From positions 1 through 63,912 of the IMG/VR virus record IMGVR_UViG_3300010938_000037: 63,912 nt of DNA; one strand, 5' to 3'. Of the stretch, positions 5,618-43,213 are shown in pieces (positions within the stretch are counted from its first letter, which is position 1; each line of letters opens with the position of its first letter). The notes under the pieces were generated by a model. It was given only the letters and a program-made list of their open reading frames with translations. It searched no databases and had not been told where the DNA came from. The stretch comes from a virus. The position numbers were made by a program, and so were the translations under genes.

Positions 5618-6571
5618 ATGAAGAACGACATCCTTGCCCTAATCAAGGAAGCCTACGCCAGGCTACGTGCTGCTGGCCTAACCCATGACCAAGTTGTGTT
5701 GGTCAGTGAGTTGGTTGCGGCGGTAGTATCTTCGCTTTTTGGTTGTTTTGGCCATGGCCGTTCGGATGGCAACGAGGACTCCAAATTGGAGTCCAAAATA
5801 GACTCCAACGACTCCAAAATGGAATCCAACGACTCCAAAATGGACTCCAAAATGGAATCCAAATTGCTAGAATCCGTAAAAGAAAGAAAGAAAGAAAGAA
5901 CCAAAGAAAGAAAGAAAGAAAATATATATATATATAACCCCCTTTCCCCCTTGGCTGAAACAAACTCCAAAATGGAGTCCCCCCTGGCCAAACAAGGACT
6001 CCAAAATGGAGTCCCCGCAAACCAAATTTTCCTTGGTCAATTCTGCGAGTTCTGGGGGATTTTTCCGCGCCGCGAGGCCAAGGGCGCGGCGCTCCGAGCC
6101 TACAAGGCGGCCCTAAAACGGGCCTCCCACGACCAGATCATGGAAGGCGCGCGGCGGTATGCCGCCAAGCGCCTTGGGCAGGACAAGCGGTATACCTGCA
6201 TGGCGTCAACCTGGCTGAATCAGGATCGTTGGTTGGATGAGGATGACGCGGAGGAACCTAAGGCGAACTCCAAGCCGAAGTTCCCAATGTGGGCCGAGGT
6301 GAAGGAGCATTACGTGGCTAAATATGGTCGCCCGGAAGCCTTTAAGCGGTATTGTGATGATCGTGAATCGGCTGCTGCTCCTGGTGCCAAAATTATTTTG
6401 TTCCCAGGAGGGTCGGGTGGCTGTGATGCGGATAGAAGGGGGAGAGATGCGCTGGTATGCGGTGATGACGAAAGCCAGGAAGGAGGAACTAGCCAAGAAA
6501 AATCTTCAGGCTCAGGGCTACTCGGTATTCTTCCCGCATTACAAGCAATGGACAACTCCCAAGAAAACTAA
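5618..6571 (+). CDS. Replication initiator-like protein containing the putative origin
   Basis: 317 aa from ATG 5618 (AAGGGGG upstream). N-terminal helical segment, then a low-complexity D/E-S-K/N-M repeat and a Lys/Glu run near residues 50-105. A C-terminal domain follows, with FWGIFPRREAKGAALRAYKA and TCMASTWLNQDRWLDE. That W...YP-R...K..A...TWLN..RW pattern is typical of the C-terminal part of phage replication proteins (DnaD/O-like neighbourhood). The low-complexity segment is where the DNA carries iteron-like repeats and an AT tract, as lambda O contains ori. The last 40 codons overlap the NusG gene. Confidence 0.65.
   Translation: MKNDILALIKEAYARLRAAGLTHDQVVLVSELVAAVVSSLFGCFGHGRSDGNEDSKLESKIDSNDSKMESNDSKMDSKMESKLLESVKERKKERTKERKKENIYIYNPLSPLAETNSKMESPLAKQGLQNGVPANQIFLGQFCEFWGIFPRREAKGAALRAYKAALKRASHDQIMEGARRYAAKRLGQDKRYTCMASTWLNQDRWLDEDDAEEPKANSKPKFPMWAEVKEHYVAKYGRPEAFKRYCDDRESAAAPGAKIILFPGGSGGCDADRRGRDALVCGDDESQEGGTSQEKSSGSGLLGILPALQAMDNSQEN
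5776..6014. other. Putative replication origin: palindromic iterons, purine tract and AT run
   Basis: At 5776-5794 there is a perfect 9-bp-arm palindrome, GGACTCCAAATTGGAGTCC. Related full or half units occur at 5801, 5810, 5831, 5843, 5963-5980 and 5996-6014. Between the two iteron groups lie a purine tract (AAAG-type repeats, 5879-5921) and an alternating AT run (about 5921-5937), a likely unwinding element. Twelve GANTC sites fall in 237 bases (starts 5777, 5789, 5801, 5810, 5822, 5831, 5843, 5855, 5870, 5975, 5997, 6009); about one is expected by chance. The layout parallels lambda ori inside gene O. Confidence 0.65.
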
Positions 6572-10016: not shown

Positions 10017-10228
10017 TTTCCTGCTCCTCTTTTGTGAAGCTTTGGGCCATGCTTCACTATCGCCTTTAGCATGGCGTGGTTTATTAGTCTGGTCGTGGAT
10101 TCGATGGTCATGGTGCCATCGTCCCATTCGACGAGGCTGTATCCGGAGGCGAGGCTATCCACTACTGTTCCCCGCTTTGTGGTTGGCATTCCCTTGTCGT
10201 TCGCTAAGCTTACGCGTGCTGGCTTCAT
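10013..10228 (-). CDS. Small KOW/SH3-like hypothetical protein (71 aa)
   Basis: ATG 10228 with AAAGGA upstream. Central GTVVDSLASGYSLVEWDDGT looks like a small SH3/KOW-type beta barrel. The C-terminus is basic (KHGPKLHKRGAGK). Overlaps the 3' end of the upstream gene by 74 bases in another frame. Confidence 0.55.
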   Translation of the reverse strand: MKPARVSLANDKGMPTTKRGTVVDSLASGYSLVEWDDGTMTIESTTRLINHAMLKAIVKHGPKLHKRGAGK

Positions 10229-10613
10229 GGAAAATCCTTTCTTTAAGGCACCTGCTAAATCCAATAGCAAGCCGGTCGATTGCTATCTGTTCCATTCCTG
10301 GCTTGACACATCCTTCCAGCACAATGCCAGTAAAGAAAGCGGCAGCATTTAGGATGGAATTAAGAACCTCCCCCTGCCTGGTGTCGCGCTGATTTTCCTC
10401 TAGGATGGCCTTGCAAAAGCCTGGGGCCATAGCCTTTATAAGGCGGCCAACAACTCTGGCTTCGGGGCTTAAATTTTTATTCACGCTAATATCATGTGCC
10501 CAGGCAATGATGGTGATTTCAGCCTGTTCTGGCTTGTTTAGGTTGATAAACCCAACCTCTGGGATAATTTCCTCAACTAGAAACGGAACGTCTGGAATTT
10601 CTCTTATTGTCAT
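10155..10613 (-). CDS. Hypothetical protein (152 aa)
   Basis: Mostly helical. Contains the hydrophobic N-terminal beta pair DVPFLVEEIIPEVGF and helices EARVVGRLIKAMAPGFCKAI and LNSILNAAAFFTGIVLEGC. It overlaps its upstream neighbour by four bases, as expected for an operon. No family recognised. Confidence 0.6.
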   Translation of the reverse strand: MTIREIPDVPFLVEEIIPEVGFINLNKPEQAEITIIAWAHDISVNKNLSPEARVVGRLIKAMAPGFCKAILEENQRDTRQGEVLNSILNAAAFFTGIVLEGCVKPGMEQIAIDRLAIGFSRCLKERIFHEASTRKLSERQGNANHKAGNSSG

Positions 10614-10936
10614 TTGGTTTGGACTCCTTTTTTATTCGCATTTATTTCTGCTTGTTCGGCCTTGTATGCAGCCCTCACCTTGTCAAGGGACAGGCGCATG
10701 GCAGCAAACTCACCGGCTAGGCGAGCCGCACTATTACGTAGCTCGTCGGCGGCCTCCAGGGTAATCCTGCCATCACTCTCCATTATATGGAGGCTAGTAA
10801 GCCAGCCCAAGGCAATGTCCATGTCGGTTGTTGACATGTCTTTTTTGGCTCTACAATCCATGGCATTCTCTAGGAGATTAATCATGTCTCCAATGTCAAG
10901 GGAGAATCTGCTCTTAGGTTTTCTATTGTTCCACAT
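10610..10936 (-). CDS. Hypothetical helical protein (108 aa)
   Basis: Predominantly alpha-helical: FSLDIGDMINLLENAMDCR and ADELRNSAARLAGEFAAMRL, probably coiled coil, with a Lys-rich end. It is the first gene of the 10936-8058 leftward set and follows a 350-base non-coding stretch that should contain its promoter. Confidence 0.6.
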   Translation of the reverse strand: MWNNRKPKSRFSLDIGDMINLLENAMDCRAKKDMSTTDMDIALGWLTSLHIMESDGRITLEAADELRNSAARLAGEFAAMRLSLDKVRAAYKAEQAEINANKKGVQTK

Positions 10937-11292: not shown

Positions 11293-11323
11293 AAAAAAAG
11301 GGAAAGGGTATTGTCCCTTTCCC
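11293..11323 (-). terminator. Rho-independent terminator (minus direction)
   Basis: GGGAAAGGG / CCCTTTCCC, 9-bp stem with a 6-base loop. On the minus strand it is followed by seven T. Lies 11 bases after the stop of the gene at 11335, so it ends the vWA/MoxR cassette. Confidence 0.85.
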
Positions 11324-11334
11324 CTAAGAGTTAG

Positions 11335-11562
11335 CTAAAGGCGGACACTGATTCCTGCCGCTTCAAAGTGCGCCTTGATGCACTCGGCGTCAGCTTCTTG
11401 GAAGGCGCGCGGAAAGTCTGGCAGTCTACCTGTTAGCGTAAGCGTATTGGCATGTTTTTTGAATACCAAGCCAGAACGCGGAACGATCCAGGTCCCGCCT
11501 TCTGCCAATGTGGCGAATAAGCCTTGGCACCATTGCGCATGCTCGTGTGTCTCTTGTGTCAT
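11335..11562 (-). CDS. Hypothetical protein (75 aa)
   Basis: ATG 11562 with AAAGGAGTC upstream, the ribosome site shared by the whole 11.3-15.1 kb cassette. Sequence: MTQETHEHAQWCQGLFATLA, then a beta-like TWIVPRSGLVFKK and a helix RAFQEADAECIKAHFEAAG. No family recognised. A structured leader (11586-11638) lies just upstream. Confidence 0.6.
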   Translation of the reverse strand: MTQETHEHAQWCQGLFATLAEGGTWIVPRSGLVFKKHANTLTLTGRLPDFPRAFQEADAECIKAHFEAAGISVRL

Positions 11563-11585
11563 GATTAGACTCCTTTCCTTTGGGC

Positions 11586-11638
11586 GAGTAGCCCGATAGC
11601 CGCGCGAGTCAGGAACCCGCGCGGCTAAAATGCTACTC
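11586..11638 (-). promoter_or_regulatory. Nested-hairpin leader upstream of the 75-aa gene
   Basis: Outer arms GAGTAGC (11586-11592) and GCTACTC (11632-11638), inner arms AGCCGCGCG (11598-11606) and CGCGCGGCT (11618-11626). All pairs are perfect. Position just 5' of the AAAGGAGTC ribosome site suggests a translation- or stability-controlling element (inference). Confidence 0.55.
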
Positions 11639-11734
11639 GGAATCAAGAGATAGGCACCATAAAAAAATCAATACTCCCACTAAAGCCCAAAATGGATTCA
11701 CGTTTCCGCTAATGATTAAGTCTGCGAATGTCAT
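11633..11734 (-). CDS. Very small membrane protein (33 aa)
   Basis: ATG 11734 with AAGGAAC upstream. Product MTFADLIISGNVNPFWALVG then VLIFLWCLSLDSE: one hydrophobic helix with short polar ends. It sits between the vWA gene terminator and the leader of the next gene. Too short for most gene finders; plausible but unproven. Confidence 0.5.
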   Translation of the reverse strand: MTFADLIISGNVNPFWALVGVLIFLWCLSLDSE

Positions 11735-11745
11735 TGGATTGTTCC

Positions 11746-11789
11746 TTAAAAAAATTTGAGGGAAGGGGGATAAATAATCCCCTTCCCTC
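11746..11789 (-). terminator. Rho-independent terminator after the vWA gene
   Basis: Perfect 11-bp stem GAGGGAAGGGG / CCCCTTCCCTC with a 10-base loop. On the minus strand it is followed by AAATTTTTTT. Lies 17 bases beyond the vWA stop. Confidence 0.85.
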
Positions 11790-11805
11790 ACAAAAATGTT
11801 CTCCT

Positions 11806-13176
11806 CTAGTCAAGTTTGCTAGGGGAGACACTAGGGCCAAAGATAGCTAGATTAGCCTGCTGCGCGTCCTCGACGCGGATAATGCGGCCACTGGCTAGCG
11901 CTTTGTTGCACTCTGCGATCATGTGATATGTGTCGCAGTTGTAGGCGCATACTCCGCCGTCACTGATCCATATCCTTGGCGCGGTTTGGCGCGCGAGGAA
12001 TCGTAGGGCCGAGTCGTCTATCTCGTTGCCGCACCCGACGCGATTCTTCCATGCTTCCACGGCATCTAGTCGCGCCATGCGGCCTCTATCGGCGAGCAAG
12101 ACGAGTCTGCCTCTACCGTCACGCCCAGCATAACCATAGACCGTGCATTCTGGGAGCGCCTCTATGAGTGCGGCATAGCTTTTGCGAGTCCAGCACATAG
12201 AGCCAGATAGATCGACCATTACTGTTCCGCGACCGCGATAACCCCCGCGCCGGATGATACCGGCCCTAAAGATTTTCTGGTCAGTCCAGAGTCGAGAGAT
12301 TCGGCCCAATACCGTGCCACTTACGTTAGAGCGTTTACGAGCGCCCTGCTTTCTTCGGCGCGGTTCCATTGGCAGCATGTCCGGCTTATTGAAGTTTTCG
12401 CAATGGCCGGTATTTAATCCTCCTCTAGACGGGGGCGGAGTCGTGCCTAGCTCCCATGGGTTACTTTCTAATTCGTCGTCGGTAAACTCCTGGTCGCTAC
12501 CAAGCTTAGTCGGCGTTAACGGCTTGGGCTTTGGATCAGCCTGAATCTCTTCCGGCGTTCGATATTTTTTGCCCTCGCCTTCGCCGCCTTCGCCTTCGCT
12601 TCTACTTTTGACTTTGGTTTCGCCACCTTGCGGCTTCTTCGGCGGTGGCGGTGGTGGTGGTGGCGGCGGCGGCTCCCCATTCGCCAACGAGCGCTGCATT
12701 AGTTTGGCGGCTTCAGCGATCACGTCTTCCCACGTGACGATAGGGCTTTCATCATCATAGCGAGTCGGAAACCCGCATATCATGGCTGCCCTCCCTATCG
12801 CAGCGGCGCGTTGCACTGCCGAGATAATAGGCAGGTTCACGACATATTTTTCGTATAAGCCACTATCTGGAGTCGCTGGCTTAGCGAGTATGCCGCTAGA
12901 TTCGGCGTGATACATAGCGCGGGCTAACCTGGCGGTATCGAGTGCCCATGCCGGAAGGCCGAAAGCGCCAGACATATCAGCAGGAGTTAGCGCCGCGTCA
13001 ACGAGCCGCAACATTCTCAGTCTTTCTTCCGTTTCGGATTCGCCTTGTGGCACAACCAGTGACGGTGCGAACGTGCTAACTTCTTGTGCGGCTGCCTCCT
13101 CGGTGGTACCCGGTATTTCCCGGTACCGTGCCAGCGACACTAGGCTAGTGTATAGCTTTCGTTTCGGTGGTTTCAT
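11806..13176 (-). CDS. von Willebrand factor A domain protein (CobT-like)
   Basis: 456 aa. N-terminal helical domain (about 1-170), a poly-Pro run and a charged, disordered linker (about 170-270), then a C-terminal vWA domain. The MIDAS starts VMVDLSGSM near residue 318 and continues with a later T/D-type motif (WISDGG near residue 408). Proteins of this shape (acidic or low-complexity linker plus vWA) partner MoxR-family AAA+ ATPases, as CobT does CobS and ViaA does RavA. The MoxR gene lies directly upstream. Substrate unknown. Codon style (many CGC, GCG, CTA, TAG-containing triplets) differs from the late genes. Confidence 0.85.
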   Translation of the reverse strand: MKPPKRKLYTSLVSLARYREIPGTTEEAAAQEVSTFAPSLVVPQGESETEERLRMLRLVDAALTPADMSGAFGLPAWALDTARLARAMYHAESSGILAKPATPDSGLYEKYVVNLPIISAVQRAAAIGRAAMICGFPTRYDDESPIVTWEDVIAEAAKLMQRSLANGEPPPPPPPPPPPKKPQGGETKVKSRSEGEGGEGEGKKYRTPEEIQADPKPKPLTPTKLGSDQEFTDDELESNPWELGTTPPPSRGGLNTGHCENFNKPDMLPMEPRRRKQGARKRSNVSGTVLGRISRLWTDQKIFRAGIIRRGGYRGRGTVMVDLSGSMCWTRKSYAALIEALPECTVYGYAGRDGRGRLVLLADRGRMARLDAVEAWKNRVGCGNEIDDSALRFLARQTAPRIWISDGGVCAYNCDTYHMIAECNKALASGRIIRVEDAQQANLAIFGPSVSPSKLD

Positions 13177-13184
13177 AATGGACT

Positions 13185-13245
13185 CCTTTCTTGGTGCGAG
13201 AGATAAAGCACCAAAAGGCGCACGCTTTTGGCGTGCGCTAATTGC
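13185..13245 (-). promoter_or_regulatory. Intercistronic hairpin/RBS module 1
   Basis: On the minus strand: GCGCACGC-CAAAA-GCGTGCGC then CTTTT (13218-13238), a GGTGC-containing spacer, then AAGGAGTC before the vWA start. A diverged copy of the modules at 14066-14133 and 14590-14662. Confidence 0.6.
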
Positions 13246-13249
13246 TGCT

Positions 13250-14056
13250 TTATGCCGTTGTGGCTTCGGTAACGCCGATAGCTGACCTTACCTCGATTGC
13301 CTTGGCGATTTGTTTTGCGTTACCGCGTGGACCGAAAATAAATTCCACTGCGTCGGCGATGGACCATCCGTGCCTGTCCATTACTTGGCCGAGGGCTACC
13401 CACTGGCGCGTGGTGACTTGCAGCCCCGCCGTGTTGCCATAGAGCGAAAATGCTGCTGCTGGGCGGAGACAACGCGGTAGCGATAGGAGTAGACGTGGAT
13501 CGGGTGCGTCGATTAGGCGCTTAATTACGAATCTGTCATTAAGCGCTTCAGGCAGTGCGGTAGGTTCGACGTTCATGGAAGCGTAGCATTGGAAATTTTC
13601 ATGCGGCCTAACTGTGCTGCCATCCGGCAGAGTGTATTGCGCGACTCCCTCGCCATCGAGAAGCAGGTGTAAGAAAGGCACAGTATCGCCCGATGCTTCG
13701 TTAATCTCCTCGATAACGAGTCTATCGCCGCGTTCCCACGCTAGCAGCCCATTGGCTTTTACGTATGCCAGTTGCGTGCCACAAGGCCGGCCTTCCGCGT
13801 CGAATGCTGTAACGGGTTCTTTCTGTCCCGCTATCTCGCCTTTAACGGTTTCGGCAGTCAGCACAACCCGTTGCAGGTTCCTGCCTTTTAAGCCGTGTTT
13901 GCATTGAACTGTAGATTTCCCGGTCCCGGGTGGGCCATAGAATAACGCTAGTCTGGCGTACTCACAGACATGATATATGTCCTGCCACATCCGCGTCGAT
14001 TCCATCAGACGCTTATGTAGCTCACCAGGAAACTGAGCTAGTTCCGCTTTTGTCAT
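13250..14056 (-). CDS. MoxR/CobS-type AAA+ ATPase
   Basis: 268 aa. Walker A GPPGTGKST near residue 40. Walker B-like RLVIEEINEASGD near residue 110. The sensor region is CYASMN near 155, with ALNDRFVIKRL near residue 170 giving the arginine-containing helix typical of MoxR (phrase L...DRF). No transmembrane segments. MoxR ATPases remodel or activate metal chelatases and other complexes with a vWA partner. The vWA protein encoded next is the obvious partner. Phages occasionally carry CobS-like genes; the role is unsettled. Confidence 0.88.
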   Translation of the reverse strand: MTKAELAQFPGELHKRLMESTRMWQDIYHVCEYARLALFYGPPGTGKSTVQCKHGLKGRNLQRVVLTAETVKGEIAGQKEPVTAFDAEGRPCGTQLAYVKANGLLAWERGDRLVIEEINEASGDTVPFLHLLLDGEGVAQYTLPDGSTVRPHENFQCYASMNVEPTALPEALNDRFVIKRLIDAPDPRLLLSLPRCLRPAAAFSLYGNTAGLQVTTRQWVALGQVMDRHGWSIADAVEFIFGPRGNAKQIAKAIEVRSAIGVTEATTA

Positions 14057-14065
14057 GCTAGGACT

Positions 14066-14133
14066 CCTTTTCTTCTATATTGGTGCCAATCGCACCAAAA
14101 GGCGCACGCCGAAGCGTGCGCTAATTGCTGCGA
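14066..14133 (-). promoter_or_regulatory. Intercistronic hairpin/RBS module 2
   Basis: GCGCACGC (14102-14109), loop CGAA, GCGTGCGC (14114-14121), then on the minus strand CTTTTGGTGC and a second small inverted pair (GGTGCG...GGCACC), ending in AAAAGGAGTC before the MoxR start. About 50 bases are nearly identical to module 3. Confidence 0.65.
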
Positions 14134-14586
14134 TCAAGAATAGATTGGCCTTCCAGTGCACGGGACACTAGTTGCCGATCGCTTAATCGCGCGATGGGCA
14201 TCGTTCTCGATGTCTGCCATGGTAAACACGCCAGTAGAGTCGGCGATGGACTCTAGGATTTGCCGCGCCATCGACGCGACCATGCTAACAGCGGCGGGTT
14301 TAATTTCGGCTTTGTCCGGCGCGAGCCGCAAAGCATAATTCGAGAACAAGAAGGATATGATTTGCGCGCACGCGCAGTTGATAGCTTGGACCCAGTCCCC
14401 CGGCGTGTCGTGACCGTGCCGACGTAAATCAGCGAGCGCCGCCGCGATGCCCGGTGCGAGCGATTTTAGCACTAGGCCATTAGCCTCGTAATCTTCGCCA
14501 GACTCGAGCAGGGTTTGCGCGATTTGCGCGAAGCAATCGCCGATTGACTCGGGATCGGACATATCTACCGTAATTTTACTTTCCAT
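14134..14586 (-). CDS. Hypothetical protein of the vWA/MoxR cassette (150 aa)
   Basis: Largely helical: MESKITVDMSDPESIGDCFA, QTLLESGEDYEANGLVLKSL, then INCACAQIISFLFSNYALRL and MVASMARQILESIADSTG. No catalytic motif seen. Same ribosome site and upstream module as the ATPase gene, so probably part of the same functional unit. Confidence 0.65.
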   Translation of the reverse strand: MESKITVDMSDPESIGDCFAQIAQTLLESGEDYEANGLVLKSLAPGIAAALADLRRHGHDTPGDWVQAINCACAQIISFLFSNYALRLAPDKAEIKPAAVSMVASMARQILESIADSTGVFTMADIENDAHRAIKRSATSVPCTGRPIYS

Positions 14587-14589
14587 TGT

Positions 14590-14662
14590 GAGACTCCTTT
14601 CTTTCTGTAGGTGCCAAATCGCACCAAAAGGCGCACGCCGAAGCGTGCGCTAATTGCTGCGA
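14590..14662 (-). promoter_or_regulatory. Intercistronic hairpin/RBS module 3
   Basis: GCGCACGC (14631-14638), loop CGAA, GCGTGCGC (14643-14650), the GGTGCG/GGCACC pair and AGAAAGGAGTC before the start at 14586. Nearly identical to module 2 over about 50 bases. Confidence 0.65.
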
Positions 14663-14668
14663 TTACGA

Positions 14669-15121
14669 TTAGTTGCTGGCAGCGTCCCGCAATTCCTCAG
14701 GGCCAATATCATCCCACGGGTGCTGATAGATATGCCGCCAGACTGTGCGAGCGGTGTAGTCGCCGCAATCGAGTTTGTTGCTGATAAAGTCGAGGCGCGC
14801 GCTGATGAGGTCGGCCAGCGCCGACAATGCCTGGCGCACGTTCTCCGTATATTCGCGCGCGGCGTCATGGTCGTGCCCGGATGTCTGGTATCCTATGTTG
14901 TAGATGGCGTCCATATCCCATGACCGCAGGGCTTCGACGTCTCCAGCAGCGATCATGCGCCTGATGGCGCGATCTACCTCAGGATATGCATTCAGTGCGC
15001 CGGTCAACGCCTTGTATTGGCGCCGAAGGCCGTGCCAGTCAAATCCGATGCCGGGTCCATCGGCGTCATCGTCGCAGTATGCGGCTGGGATACCCCAGCC
15101 ACGGCATATCGTAGTTTCCAT
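14669..15121 (-). CDS. Hypothetical protein, first gene of the vWA/MoxR cassette (150 aa)
   Basis: Begins METTICRGWGIPAAYCDDDA. Helical middle (YKALTGALNAYPEVDRAIRR), a segment SWDMDAIYNIGYQTSGHDHD and the C-terminal DYTARTVWRHIYQHPWDDIG. Many acidic and His residues, so metal binding is possible but unproven. AAAGGAGTC precedes ATG 15121, and the structured leader 15158-15245 lies upstream. Confidence 0.6.
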   Translation of the reverse strand: METTICRGWGIPAAYCDDDADGPGIGFDWHGLRRQYKALTGALNAYPEVDRAIRRMIAAGDVEALRSWDMDAIYNIGYQTSGHDHDAAREYTENVRQALSALADLISARLDFISNKLDCGDYTARTVWRHIYQHPWDDIGPEELRDAASN

Positions 15122-15157
15122 GTTCAGACTCCTTTCTAGTTAGCTCAGGTGCTACTT

Positions 15158-15245
15158 ATTGAGCGCCAAAGACTCCGCGTTGGCTCCCTAGTCTGGTGCC
15201 GGGAAGCGAGTCAGTCACTAGGGCACGGAGTCGTTGCCGCTCAAT
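15158..15245 (-). ncRNA. Structured leader/ncRNA, element A
   Basis: Three nested helices: ATTGAGCG (15158-15165) with CGCTCAAT (15238-15245), GACTCCG (15171-15177) with CGGAGTC (15226-15232), CCCTAGT (15186-15192) with ACTAGGG (15217-15223); all perfect. Shares GGTGCCGGGA and GGGCACGGAGTC with 42686-42725, and AGACTCCGCGTTGGC (14 of 15) with 19974-19988. Lies in the 5' leader of the 15121 gene. The rest of the 15122-15532 gap is GC-rich and shows no gene. Confidence 0.6.
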
Positions 15246-15532
15246 ACGTAGTTTGGGCCAAGCGTGGCTATCCTTACCGGCATTAGACTAGCGGGGCGCC
15301 CTTTGGGCCCATGGCGTCGATCTTGCTATTATCCATTGCCCCAAGTGTGCGCATGACGCCGCTATCGCTTGCCCGCGCGGGATAAGCCCGGCTTGGGCCG
15401 CGCCGTGCGTGCTCTACGTTTTAACCCCATAGGCTTACCCTATAGGAGTGCCGGGTCACGGTGGGCGGGTAGTTGATTCTATTTGCTTGCATTATGCCAT
15501 ACGGCTAAAGCAAAGTCATTCCTTTTTTAGGG

Positions 15533-15561
15533 TGAACATTAAGCGAACATTAGAATATTAT
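15533..15561 (+). promoter_or_regulatory. Promoter overlapped by GAAC repeats, upstream of the small terminase candidate
   Basis: TGAACA (15533-15538), 17 bases, TATTAT (15556-15561). GAAC occurs at 15534 and 15545 and again at 15580 and 15591, each pair 11 bases apart. The first pair overlaps the -35 and spacer, so a protein binding GAAC repeats could block this promoter (inference). Confidence 0.5.
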
Positions 15562-15594
15562 TCCAATTTCTGGAAATGAGAACATTAAGCGAAC

Positions 15595-16182
15595 ATGCCG
15601 CCAACATACAAGCGAAAAAAACAGCTAGATCAAAGGCTTGCCGCCGTGGCAGACAATGATTTGGGCATACCAAAATTAACGGCCAAGCAAGAAAAGTTCG
15701 CCAGACTCGTGGCTATGGGAGTTAATCCAAAGGATGCCTACAGGCAATCTCATGATGCCTCACAGATGAAAGAAAATAGTGTTGCTGTAGAAGCGTGGCG
15801 GATGCGGCAAAAACCGAAGATCGCGCAGTTTATCCGGGCAATTCAACGACTTGGCATCGAGCACGAAACAATAACCAGAGAAAGTCACCTAGCAGAATTG
15901 GCGCGGGGCCGCGAAATTGCTTATGCGCTCGGCCAAGCCAGCGCAGGAATACAGGCCGAACACTATCGCGGGCGGGTTTCTGGGCTGTATAACGACAGGA
16001 TAACCTTGGCTATCGGCCCTAGCGACGAGGCTCTATTGGGTCAGCTAGCGGCCATTTTGGGGCCGGAAACTGCCCAGGTTCTTGGCGAAGCTATGGGCGT
16101 TACTGGCGATGTTATTGACCTACAGCCCAATACCGACACCGACAGTGAGACTTTGAGTCTCCCTCCTCCTTGGGAATCCTAG
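15595..16182 (+). CDS. terS: Terminase small subunit (putative)
   Basis: 195 aa. After a basic N-terminus comes PKLTAKQEKFARLVAMGVNP, KDAYRQSHDA and VAVEAWRMRQKPKIAQFIR. This is the L-T-x-K-Q-E-x-F...A-Y-R-x-S...A...R-x-x-x-K-P-K-I pattern of the HTH domain of many small terminases. The C-terminal half is helical, as expected for an oligomerisation core. TerS rings recognise pac/cos DNA. It is 24 kb from the large-subunit gene, which is unusual. Phased GAAC and GTTC arrays flank it. Confidence 0.7.
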   Translation: MPPTYKRKKQLDQRLAAVADNDLGIPKLTAKQEKFARLVAMGVNPKDAYRQSHDASQMKENSVAVEAWRMRQKPKIAQFIRAIQRLGIEHETITRESHLAELARGREIAYALGQASAGIQAEHYRGRVSGLYNDRITLAIGPSDEALLGQLAAILGPETAQVLGEAMGVTGDVIDLQPNTDTDSETLSLPPPWES

Positions 16183-42521: not shown

Positions 42522-42596
42522 AGCAGAGTGGCGCAATGGCAGCGCGGTGACCTCATAAGTCACAGGTAGTGGGTTCGATTCCCACCTCTGCAACCA
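42522..42596 (+). tRNA. tRNA-Met (CAT)
   Basis: 75 nt with encoded CCA. Anticodon arm GTGAC-CTCATAA-GTCAC (CAT at 42554-42556), D arm GCGC/GCGC, T arm GTGGG-TTCGATT-CCCAC. Acceptor pairs 2-7 are perfect but 1-72 is A-A, a mismatch reminiscent of initiator tRNA. It lacks the three G-C pairs of an initiator anticodon stem. Confidence 0.9.
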
Positions 42597-42597
42597 T

Positions 42598-42673
42598 GCG
42601 GGGTTGAGCGTAATTGGCAGCGCCACAGCCTTCCAAGCTGTAGGTGTCGGTTCGAGCCCGACACCCCGCTCCA
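42598..42673 (+). tRNA. tRNA-Gly (TCC)
   Basis: 76 nt with encoded CCA. Acceptor GCGGGGT/ACCCCGC perfect, anticodon arm ACAGC-CTTCCAA-GCTGT, T arm GTCGG-TTCGAGC-CCGAC. Starts two bases after the tRNA-Met end. Confidence 0.93.
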
Positions 42674-42684
42674 TATTCTTCAGC

Positions 42685-42795
42685 GGGTGCCGGGAGCAGG
42701 CAGCCAGAGTGCTGGGCACGGAGTCTTTGGTGCTGTCTCTGGATTGGCACCCTAGACAAGCGGGCAGGGTGGGCTAAACCCTGCCCCCCGCTCCA
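42685..42795 (+). ncRNA. Structured RNA with tRNA-like CCA end, related to element A
   Basis: GGGTGCC (42685-42691) pairs with GGCACCC (42746-42752). GGTGCCGGGA and GGGCACGGAGTC (42714-42725) match element A at 15195-15232. A second hairpin, GCAGGGT/ACCCTGC, is followed by CCCCGCTCCA, the same end as the neighbouring tRNA-Gly. No normal T loop or anticodon arm, so not a functional tRNA. Co-transcribed with the tRNAs. Confidence 0.45.
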
Positions 42796-42839
42796 TTTCT
42801 TGACACATGAAGGAATATTGGTTAGAAGACTGGGCTATC

Positions 42840-42916
42840 CTGGGCGTGGCGCAGTTGGGTAGCGCATATCGTTTGGAGCGATAGGGTCGATGGTTCGAGT
42901 CCATCCGCCCAGACCA
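42840..42916 (+). tRNA. tRNA-Pro (TGG)
   Basis: 77 nt with encoded CCA. Acceptor CTGGGCG/CGCCCAG, anticodon arm TATCG-TTTGGAG-CGATA, T arm GATGG-TTCGAGT-CCATC. All stems perfect. Confidence 0.93.
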
Positions 42917-42986
42917 TTTTGAAGGTGCTTAATTAGCGTGATGGAGAAGAAAGTGGAACATTCATCGTCAGGCTCGTCCACCCAAA

Positions 42987-43076
42987 GGATGGGCAAGCCG
43001 ATTGGCGACGGCAGCGGTCCTGAAAACCGAAGAGCCTCAAAGGGCCTTGGGGGTTCGACTCCCTCCCCATCCGCCA
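42987..43076 (+). tRNA. tRNA-Ser (TGA)
   Basis: 90 nt with long variable arm and encoded CCA. Acceptor GGATGGG/CCCATCC, D arm GCC/GGC, anticodon loop CCTGAAA, T arm GGGGG-TTCGACT-CCCTC. Position 33, normally an invariant U, is C here, and pair 27-43 is mismatched. Confidence 0.85.
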
Positions 43077-43139
43077 TTAAAACTGCTTTTTATGAACGCC
43101 TGGTGCGCCGCGTTAAAGGCTGGCGGCTCCACTAACCAT

Positions 43140-43213
43140 ACCAGCGTGGTGTAGTGGTAGCATGGCGGCCTCCAACTCCGAAGGTGCGGGTTCGATTCCT
43201 GCCGCTGGTGCCA
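43140..43213 (+). tRNA. tRNA-Trp (CCA), weak anticodon stem
   Basis: 74 nt with encoded CCA. Acceptor ACCAGCG/CGCTGGT, T arm GCGGG-TTCGATT-CCTGC. Standard numbering gives loop CTCCAAC, anticodon CCA, U33 present, but the anticodon stem keeps only three of five pairs. Shifting by one would read TCC (Gly) with a worse stem. Confidence 0.75.

Follow-up and report, generated by a model that had tools for sequence, protein, structure and literature searches.

What does a phage do with a MoxR-type ATPase and a von Willebrand factor A (vWA) protein encoded side by side, in a cassette whose genes are separated by hairpins? The question is raised by a minus-strand locus of the IMG/VR record IMGVR_UViG_3300010938_000037, a linear record of 63,912 bases that was analysed in its entirety and is called the window here. 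The record carries a large terminase, tail or lysis-type proteins, a head-tail adaptor and a major head protein, and its source is an uncultivated tailed phage. The cassette begins at a candidate promoter near 15.5 kb, ends at a terminator at 11.3 kb and holds, in order of transcription, two genes for 150-residue proteins, the MoxR gene, the vWA gene, a tiny open reading frame and a gene for a 75-residue protein; the five main genes and the tiny membrane reading frame described in a first-pass annotation of this DNA are all present where it had placed them. We conclude, with a probability of about 0.68, that the core of the cassette encodes a MoxR-vWA remodelling machine and is a divergent representative of a pair that is widespread in tailed phages. 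The pair is made up as follows.

13250..14056, minus strand: MoxR-type AAA+ ATPase, 268 aa, assigned from AAA_5, PHROG 16448/249, the family alignment and profile matches
13913-13936, minus strand: Walker A motif GPPGTGKS of the MoxR protein, from the family alignment
11806..13176, minus strand: putative vWA co-chaperone, 456 aa, assigned from PHROG 33218 and an AlphaFold model, always downstream of MoxR
11836..12237, minus strand: vWA domain, residues 314-447, from the family alignment, the AlphaFold model and a structural match
12199-12213, minus strand: metal ion-dependent adhesion site (MIDAS) motif DLSGS, which includes D322 and S324, invariant in 48 sequences

Judged by its motifs and library matches, the product of 13250-14056 is a MoxR-type AAA+ ATPase. 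It matches AAA_5 in Pfam (3e-9), PHROG 16448 (2.6e-16) and PHROG 249 (1e-10), and in a 31-sequence alignment G41, G44-K47, N162 (sensor-1) and R175 (the arginine finger) are invariant and R217 (sensor-2) nearly so. The Walker B motif, VIEEIN, keeps the catalytic glutamate and has a further glutamate at the aspartate position; in the MoxR proteins of viral relatives (loci L092-L171) that position is mostly asparagine (VINEID), which is unusual for an ATPase family. The family profile matches midasin and then NorQ, CbbQ and CobS. Identity to the environmental phage relatives is about 30-38%, and in a tree of 82 the window protein forms a deep, long, lone branch beside other viral rows.

The annotation of PHROG 249 as porphyrin biosynthesis would fit a cobaltochelatase-like CobST that borrows the CobN of the host and raises cobalamin for nucleotide synthesis, as has been proposed for archaeal and cyanophage cobST (PMC8651126). 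However, the window ATPase reaches 17.9 bits on the CobS equivalog TIGR01650, against a cut-off of 558.55. None of 30 phage records, this one among them, contained CobN, with positive controls, a count to be read with the possibility that the record is incomplete or that CobN comes from the host; a large ribonucleotide reductase chain was likewise found in 0 of the same 30, so that no B12-dependent enzyme of that kind was seen among them. Given these two absences, and as the CobS model failed widely, a function in cobalamin synthesis is very improbable.

The vWA protein consists of a helical N-terminal domain, a proline-rich and acidic linker and a C-terminal vWA domain, and all 48 family members match PHROG 33218. 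The DxSGS motif is invariant in the 48 sequences, as are N384, D387 and D406; the position usually held by the MIDAS threonine appears to be Asn384 in every one. In the region of residues about 255-312, which in NorQD-like action would enter the pore as a loop, G287, R295 and D299 are invariant and F303 nearly so. In an AlphaFold model built from these 48 sequences the domain (~314-447) is confident, with a predicted local distance difference test (pLDDT) mostly near or above 90. In structure it is closest to the vWA domains of NorD complexed with NorQ, with Z 9.5 (161 residues, 4.1 A) and Z 9.4 (122 residues, 2.5 A) and 16-17% sequence identity in the fold alignment; the next row has a Z of 7.3, and the rows below NorD are other vWA proteins. 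Foldseek alone returned no match with E below 0.001 against the PDB, though vWA proteins were listed first. On this model, the product of 11806-13176 is a MIDAS-bearing vWA protein with a vWA fold. One candidate relative (L002) was rejected, the match being a short chance one (DAVEAWKNR) in an unrelated 88-residue reading frame of another phage.

Relatives of the pair had to be sought at a distance. Searches of the cassette, MoxR and vWA by tblastn and blastn against cultured phages gave nothing at 1e-5, and single-sequence MoxR searches were negative for cultured phages, viral contigs and bacterial genomes alike. Contigs related by terminase, most of them fragments, gave no MoxR match. A search with an alignment of distant-phage AAA proteins led to a locus (L090) in which a MoxR relative (33%, 7e-27) has a vWA relative (32%, 3e-17) immediately after it, and a scan with the two MoxR sequences, from the window and from L090, then yielded 80 virus loci, the best 80 of 173. 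In 79 of the 83 MoxR-seeded loci the vWA gene lies directly downstream of MoxR on the same strand; the remaining loci comprise two at a contig edge, one (L091) that has the pair on inspection, and one (L172) that is a bacterial genome. When the search was reversed and seeded with vWA, MoxR lay immediately upstream in 41 of 47 new loci, the remaining six being cut at a contig edge. The MoxR-to-vWA order is therefore kept wherever a viral relative offers enough sequence, at 80 MoxR-seeded and 41 independent vWA-seeded loci, and the agreement of the two directions makes the pairing effectively obligate across a virus-wide set of at least 120 loci. By these sequence searches, close relatives are absent and distant relatives are common in environmental viruses.

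Outside this set, the Microbacterium phages L083, L088 and L089 have a MoxR-related AAA-ATPase without an adjacent annotated vWA gene; in Zooman (L083) it adjoins rIIA/rIIB-like genes, and in Cece (L089) a rIIA-like gene. In Actinomycetia phage DSL-LC01, by annotation, a gene for a 'cobalamin biosynthesis protein' comes after that of an AAA ATPase.

This conserved pair, together with the NorD- and NorQ-type matches, supports the first-pass view of MoxR and vWA as a chaperone-like machine. Because NorD is the best fit for the vWA domain, and midasin, NorQ, CbbQ and CobS are what the MoxR profile recovers, the two proteins most likely work, by analogy, as NorQD, CbbQO and CobST do, as an ATP-driven remodeller with a vWA adaptor. 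If the mechanism of NorQ-NorD (PMC13036017, PMC9976466) applies, the MoxR protein would form an ATP-driven hexamer, the C-terminal vWA domain of its partner would dock on the ring, and the MIDAS metal site would hold a client protein; ATP hydrolysis would pull or twist the linker to the N-terminal domain of the vWA protein, and the client would thereby be remodelled or given a cofactor. MIDAS mutants of NorD inactivate the client and retain NorQ binding (PMC9976466). In the literature we found no tested function for the MoxR-vWA pairs of bacterial phages. The cassette belongs to a region of early-type genes and is carried by the strand opposite to the virion genes, which favours a client from replication or from the host over a virion protein.

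A virion client is nevertheless what a virion-assembly chaperone would have, the pair remodelling structural proteins or processing them through a metallopeptidase domain. Such a chaperone role has been reported for Acidianus two-tailed virus and proposed for group 2.2 jumbo phages, in which MoxR accompanies a vWA domain fused to an N-terminal metallopeptidase (PMC7824862), and among 79 relatives the vWA protein has HExxH near its N-terminus in 48. In the window protein LRLVD aligns there instead, and a 28-row clade lacks HExxH as well; as far as the alignment tells, the metallopeptidase motif of the window copy is lost. Across the tree of loci L090-L171, three changes suffice to explain the presence and absence of HExxH, as loss or gain of a putative metallopeptidase inside a single phage family. 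The surroundings of the pair also speak against a virion role: besides the strand on which the cassette lies, an exonuclease-type gene stands beside the pair in 68 of 83 relative loci, and cobS in a cyanophage adjoins genes for the sliding clamp and clamp loader. A role in the virion is possible, but gene location makes it the less favoured choice and, in our view, an unlikely one.

The MoxR-vWA pair is accompanied in the window by small genes and by signals at the two ends of the cassette.

14669..15121, minus strand: gene 1, orphan, 150 aa, coding z 4.1
14134..14586, minus strand: gene 2, orphan, 150 aa, coding z 3.6, predicted to be mostly helical in a low-confidence model
11633..11734, minus strand: tiny open reading frame, 33 aa, one hydrophobic segment, without support from codon usage
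11335..11562, minus strand: last gene, orphan, 75 aa, coding z 2.9
15491..15519, minus strand: candidate promoter, ATGACT, 17 nt and TG-extended CATAAT, a consensus match only, the total number of matches being not clearly above chance
11298..11325, minus strand: intrinsic terminator at the cassette end

Codon usage supports the five main genes (MoxR scores 5.2 and vWA 7.0, although both were themselves part of the training set) and gives no support to coding in the tiny reading frame (z = 0.8). The first-pass annotation had proposed a self-contained five-gene system and had suggested looking for the same gene order in other phages. Only the MoxR-to-vWA order is kept: neither the two 150-residue proteins, nor the 75-residue protein, the tiny reading frame or two downstream genes have a relative in about 130 pair loci, so that the five-gene order is not a conserved system. 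Such an absence is what the first-pass annotation had itself named as refuting its proposal, and for the unknown genes it is what was observed. Matches to the small genes in Pfam, PHROGs, NCBIfam and PADLOC, of which some libraries covered a subset of the genes, were not at meaningful scores, and a single-sequence model of gene 2 reached a pLDDT of 54. The small flanking proteins are lineage-specific.

All five genes might together form a counter-defence or host-takeover device, as had also been suggested; small orphan genes are common among phage takeover genes. MoxR-vWA modules do occur in proposed bacterial conflict systems (PMC7159879). Yet no match was found in PADLOC, the bpMoxR model gave 12.9 bits against a cut-off of 27 (it covers the beta-propeller subclass only), and no small gene travels with the pair. 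Neighbouring proteins gave no Pfam or PADLOC match to a VMAP, iSTAND, FtsH or beta-propeller third component, of which fast-diverging ones could escape such a search. Nothing in these results supports host takeover or counter-defence, and we consider a five-gene device of this kind improbable.

Upstream of the cassette promoter, GAACATTAAGCGAACAT occurs in two exact copies (15534-15550 and 15580-15596) and is absent from the rest of the window; the copies adjoin the promoter and the start of a divergent small-terminase-like gene, an operator-like position. Elsewhere in the record, a four-tRNA cluster (Met, Gly, Pro, Trp) at 42522-43213 follows the large terminase.

The spaces between the genes are the second distinctive feature of the locus, and here the first-pass annotation is borne out: it had noted a structured element for each main gene, and mutual repeats at 13185, 14066 and 14590. 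The gaps measure 82, 77, 73, 71 and 70 nt, each of the five holds a strong hairpin, and all five are within the top 1% for stability among 80-nt minus-strand windows, GC content allowed for. There is a further hairpin in the leader.

15152..15251, minus strand: long leader hairpin before gene 1, in a 139-nt leader, z -4.72
14617..14664, minus strand: hairpin module A, between genes 1 and 2, repeat with re-pairing, fold z -3.95
14088..14135, minus strand: hairpin module B, between gene 2 and MoxR, beginning within the gene 2 stop codon, repeat with re-pairing, z -3.29
13203..13253, minus strand: hairpin module C, between MoxR and vWA, beginning at the MoxR stop codon, repeat with re-pairing, z -4.43
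11748..11789, minus strand: terminator-like hairpin and U-tract after vWA (GAGGGAAGGGG...CCCCCTTCCCTC...AAATTTTTTT), z -2.63
11585..11639, minus strand: hairpin with 25-nt arms ahead of the 75-residue gene, z -6.20

Modules A, B and C are copies of one element. Two exact 18-mers are each present three times, which none of 300 shuffles reproduced, and the 14.1- and 14.6-kb copies share 95% identity across 56 nt; the hairpins of the remaining two gaps and of the leader are of unrelated sequence. Each of the three copies folds into one long hairpin with outer, short middle and inner stems, which in module A are an outer stem of 7 bp, CAA/UUG and an inner stem of 8 bp closed by a UUCG loop. AATCGCA/TGCGATT forms the outer stem of one copy, ATAAAGCA/TGCTTTAT that of another (module C, with the loop CAAAA). 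By hand alignment, three pairs have changed on both sides between copies, the outcome expected if pairing matters. As the upstream stop codon lies in or beside the stem, a terminating ribosome would disturb the repeat hairpin. Farther downstream, the fold predicted at 11563-11645 pairs the ribosome site of the 75-residue gene with the end of the tiny reading frame, a translational-coupling layout, and suggests that the 75-residue gene may be coupled to that frame.

Several other accounts of the hairpins were discarded. An Rfam search gave no match. Tandem gene duplication as the origin of the repeats was rejected, the two 150-residue proteins not being duplicates of each other, and so was a switch to a GGUGC/GCACC hairpin, which is 2.5-5.7 kcal/mol weaker than the long hairpin in all copies. 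A copy of the hairpin 18-mer in locus L087 lies in an unrelated stretch and is at chance level for a collection of that size. The most stable 80-nt minus-strand window for its GC content (z -5) lies at 5781-5860, inside a plus-strand replication-initiation gene.

Each main gene also has the same ribosome site, as the first-pass annotation had it.

15126..15136, minus strand: ribosome site GAAAGGAGTCT of gene 1, with the core AAAGGAGTC
14592-14600, 14062-14070, 13181-13189 and 11568-11576, minus strand: the other AAAGGAGTC cores in the cassette
10622-10630, minus strand: AAAGGAGTC site outside the cassette, at the gene 10155-10613, past the cassette terminator

AAAGGAGTC occurs six times in the 63,912 bases, against a mean of 0.44 in shuffles, and all six copies are on the minus strand, 4-8 nt ahead of an ATG. 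Five belong to the main cassette genes and the sixth to a gene whose ATG is at 10613; the tiny reading frame has none. Since the sixth start is beyond the cassette terminator, the meaning of the site is not confined to the cassette.

A common ribosome site behind a repeated hairpin may also bring to mind a family of binding sites, read by a phage or host factor, in place of a site of RNA processing. The start-associated sequences of cluster K mycobacteriophages have such a layout, a repeated ribosome site with an upstream inverted repeat at several gene starts (PMC3203893), and the near-identity of modules A and B would agree with it. Against it, the five gaps hold three unrelated hairpin sequences, so that structure rather than one binding sequence is apparently kept, and the outer stem changes in sequence yet stays paired. 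We retain a binding-site family as a tentative alternative, the less probable of the two. Most likely the hairpins act on RNA, through processing, 3'-end protection or partial termination, and each gene would then be its own expression unit. Structured, repeated elements between the genes could thus set expression gene by gene, and the dosage control that the first-pass annotation had envisaged would be plausible. A more far-reaching version, which we think doubtful, is that each gene has a hairpin of its own as insulation, in gaps of equal size, with pairing kept while sequence is replaced; this would give gene-by-gene mRNA units for a remodeller whose client and two lineage-specific partner proteins would all be part of an undescribed remodelling pathway.

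Several points weigh against a remodelling machine served by such spacers. ATPase activity is not assured, given the long tree branch of the window MoxR and the glutamate at its Walker B aspartate position; the end branch measures 3.56, and its placement in the tree calls for long-branch caution. Confidence in the AlphaFold vWA model is low for the N-terminal and linker parts, which limits what it can say about a pore-entering finger. Re-pairing of the outer stem is known from three copies in one genome, and the hairpin spacer is not a family trait, the MoxR and vWA genes of most relatives overlapping or nearly touching.

With its obligate pairing and a metallopeptidase motif that is present or absent by clade, the virus-wide set makes the target of remodelling a testable question, and the cassette, with its hairpin spacers of equal size and the paired replacement between copies, offers a clean natural system for studying how phages tune genes within one transcript. 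Phage MoxR-vWA pairs are themselves already known, from phage 0305phi8-36 (PMC2147016), haloviruses (PMC7911831), the cobST clusters of many tailed viruses (PMC8651126) and jumbo phages (PMC7824862). The nearest to the window are those of environmental tailed phages (PHROG 16448/249 with 33218), which have the same MoxR-then-vWA order on one strand and the same MIDAS pattern, DxSGS..N..D; the window copy differs as a lone deep branch without the HExxH found in many of these relatives, and its two genes are set 73 nt apart by a hairpin spacer, those of the relatives usually overlapping or nearly touching. NorQ-NorD and CbbQ-CbbO share with it a single-domain MoxR ATPase and a partner with a helical N-terminus, a disordered linker and a C-terminal vWA domain; in the window no nitric oxide reductase or RuBisCO was noticed nearby, and the phage family differs in the apparent asparagine at the MIDAS threonine position and in its low sequence identity. 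Group 2.2 jumbo phages have the same pair architecture (PMC7824862), whereas the window vWA protein lacks the metallopeptidase motif and the genome, a 63.9 kb record, is not of jumbo size. The CobS/CobT of cyanophages and haloarchaeal tailed viruses (PMC8651126) likewise combines an AAA+ ATPase with a CobT-like vWA partner, and identity between cyanophage CobS proteins and two environmental-clade members is only about 25-33%; the window differs in failing the CobS equivalog cut-off and in the absence of CobN and of the large ribonucleotide reductase chain. RavA-ViaA would be recognised by a RavA-specific C-terminal extension and a match to the ViaA family; the window MoxR, of 268 residues, is a single AAA+ domain.

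For the spacers, the closest known parallel is the start-associated and extended start-associated sequences of cluster K mycobacteriophages (PMC3203893), in which a repeated ribosome site and inverted repeats also stand upstream of several starts; there the site is a 13-bp GGGATAGGAGCCC at scattered positions, and here it is AAAGGAGTC, with several unrelated hairpins in one operon. Set beside these systems, the cassette is unusual in the divergence of its MoxR-vWA pair, in the lost metallopeptidase motif and in an equal-sized, hairpin-filled spacing of its genes.

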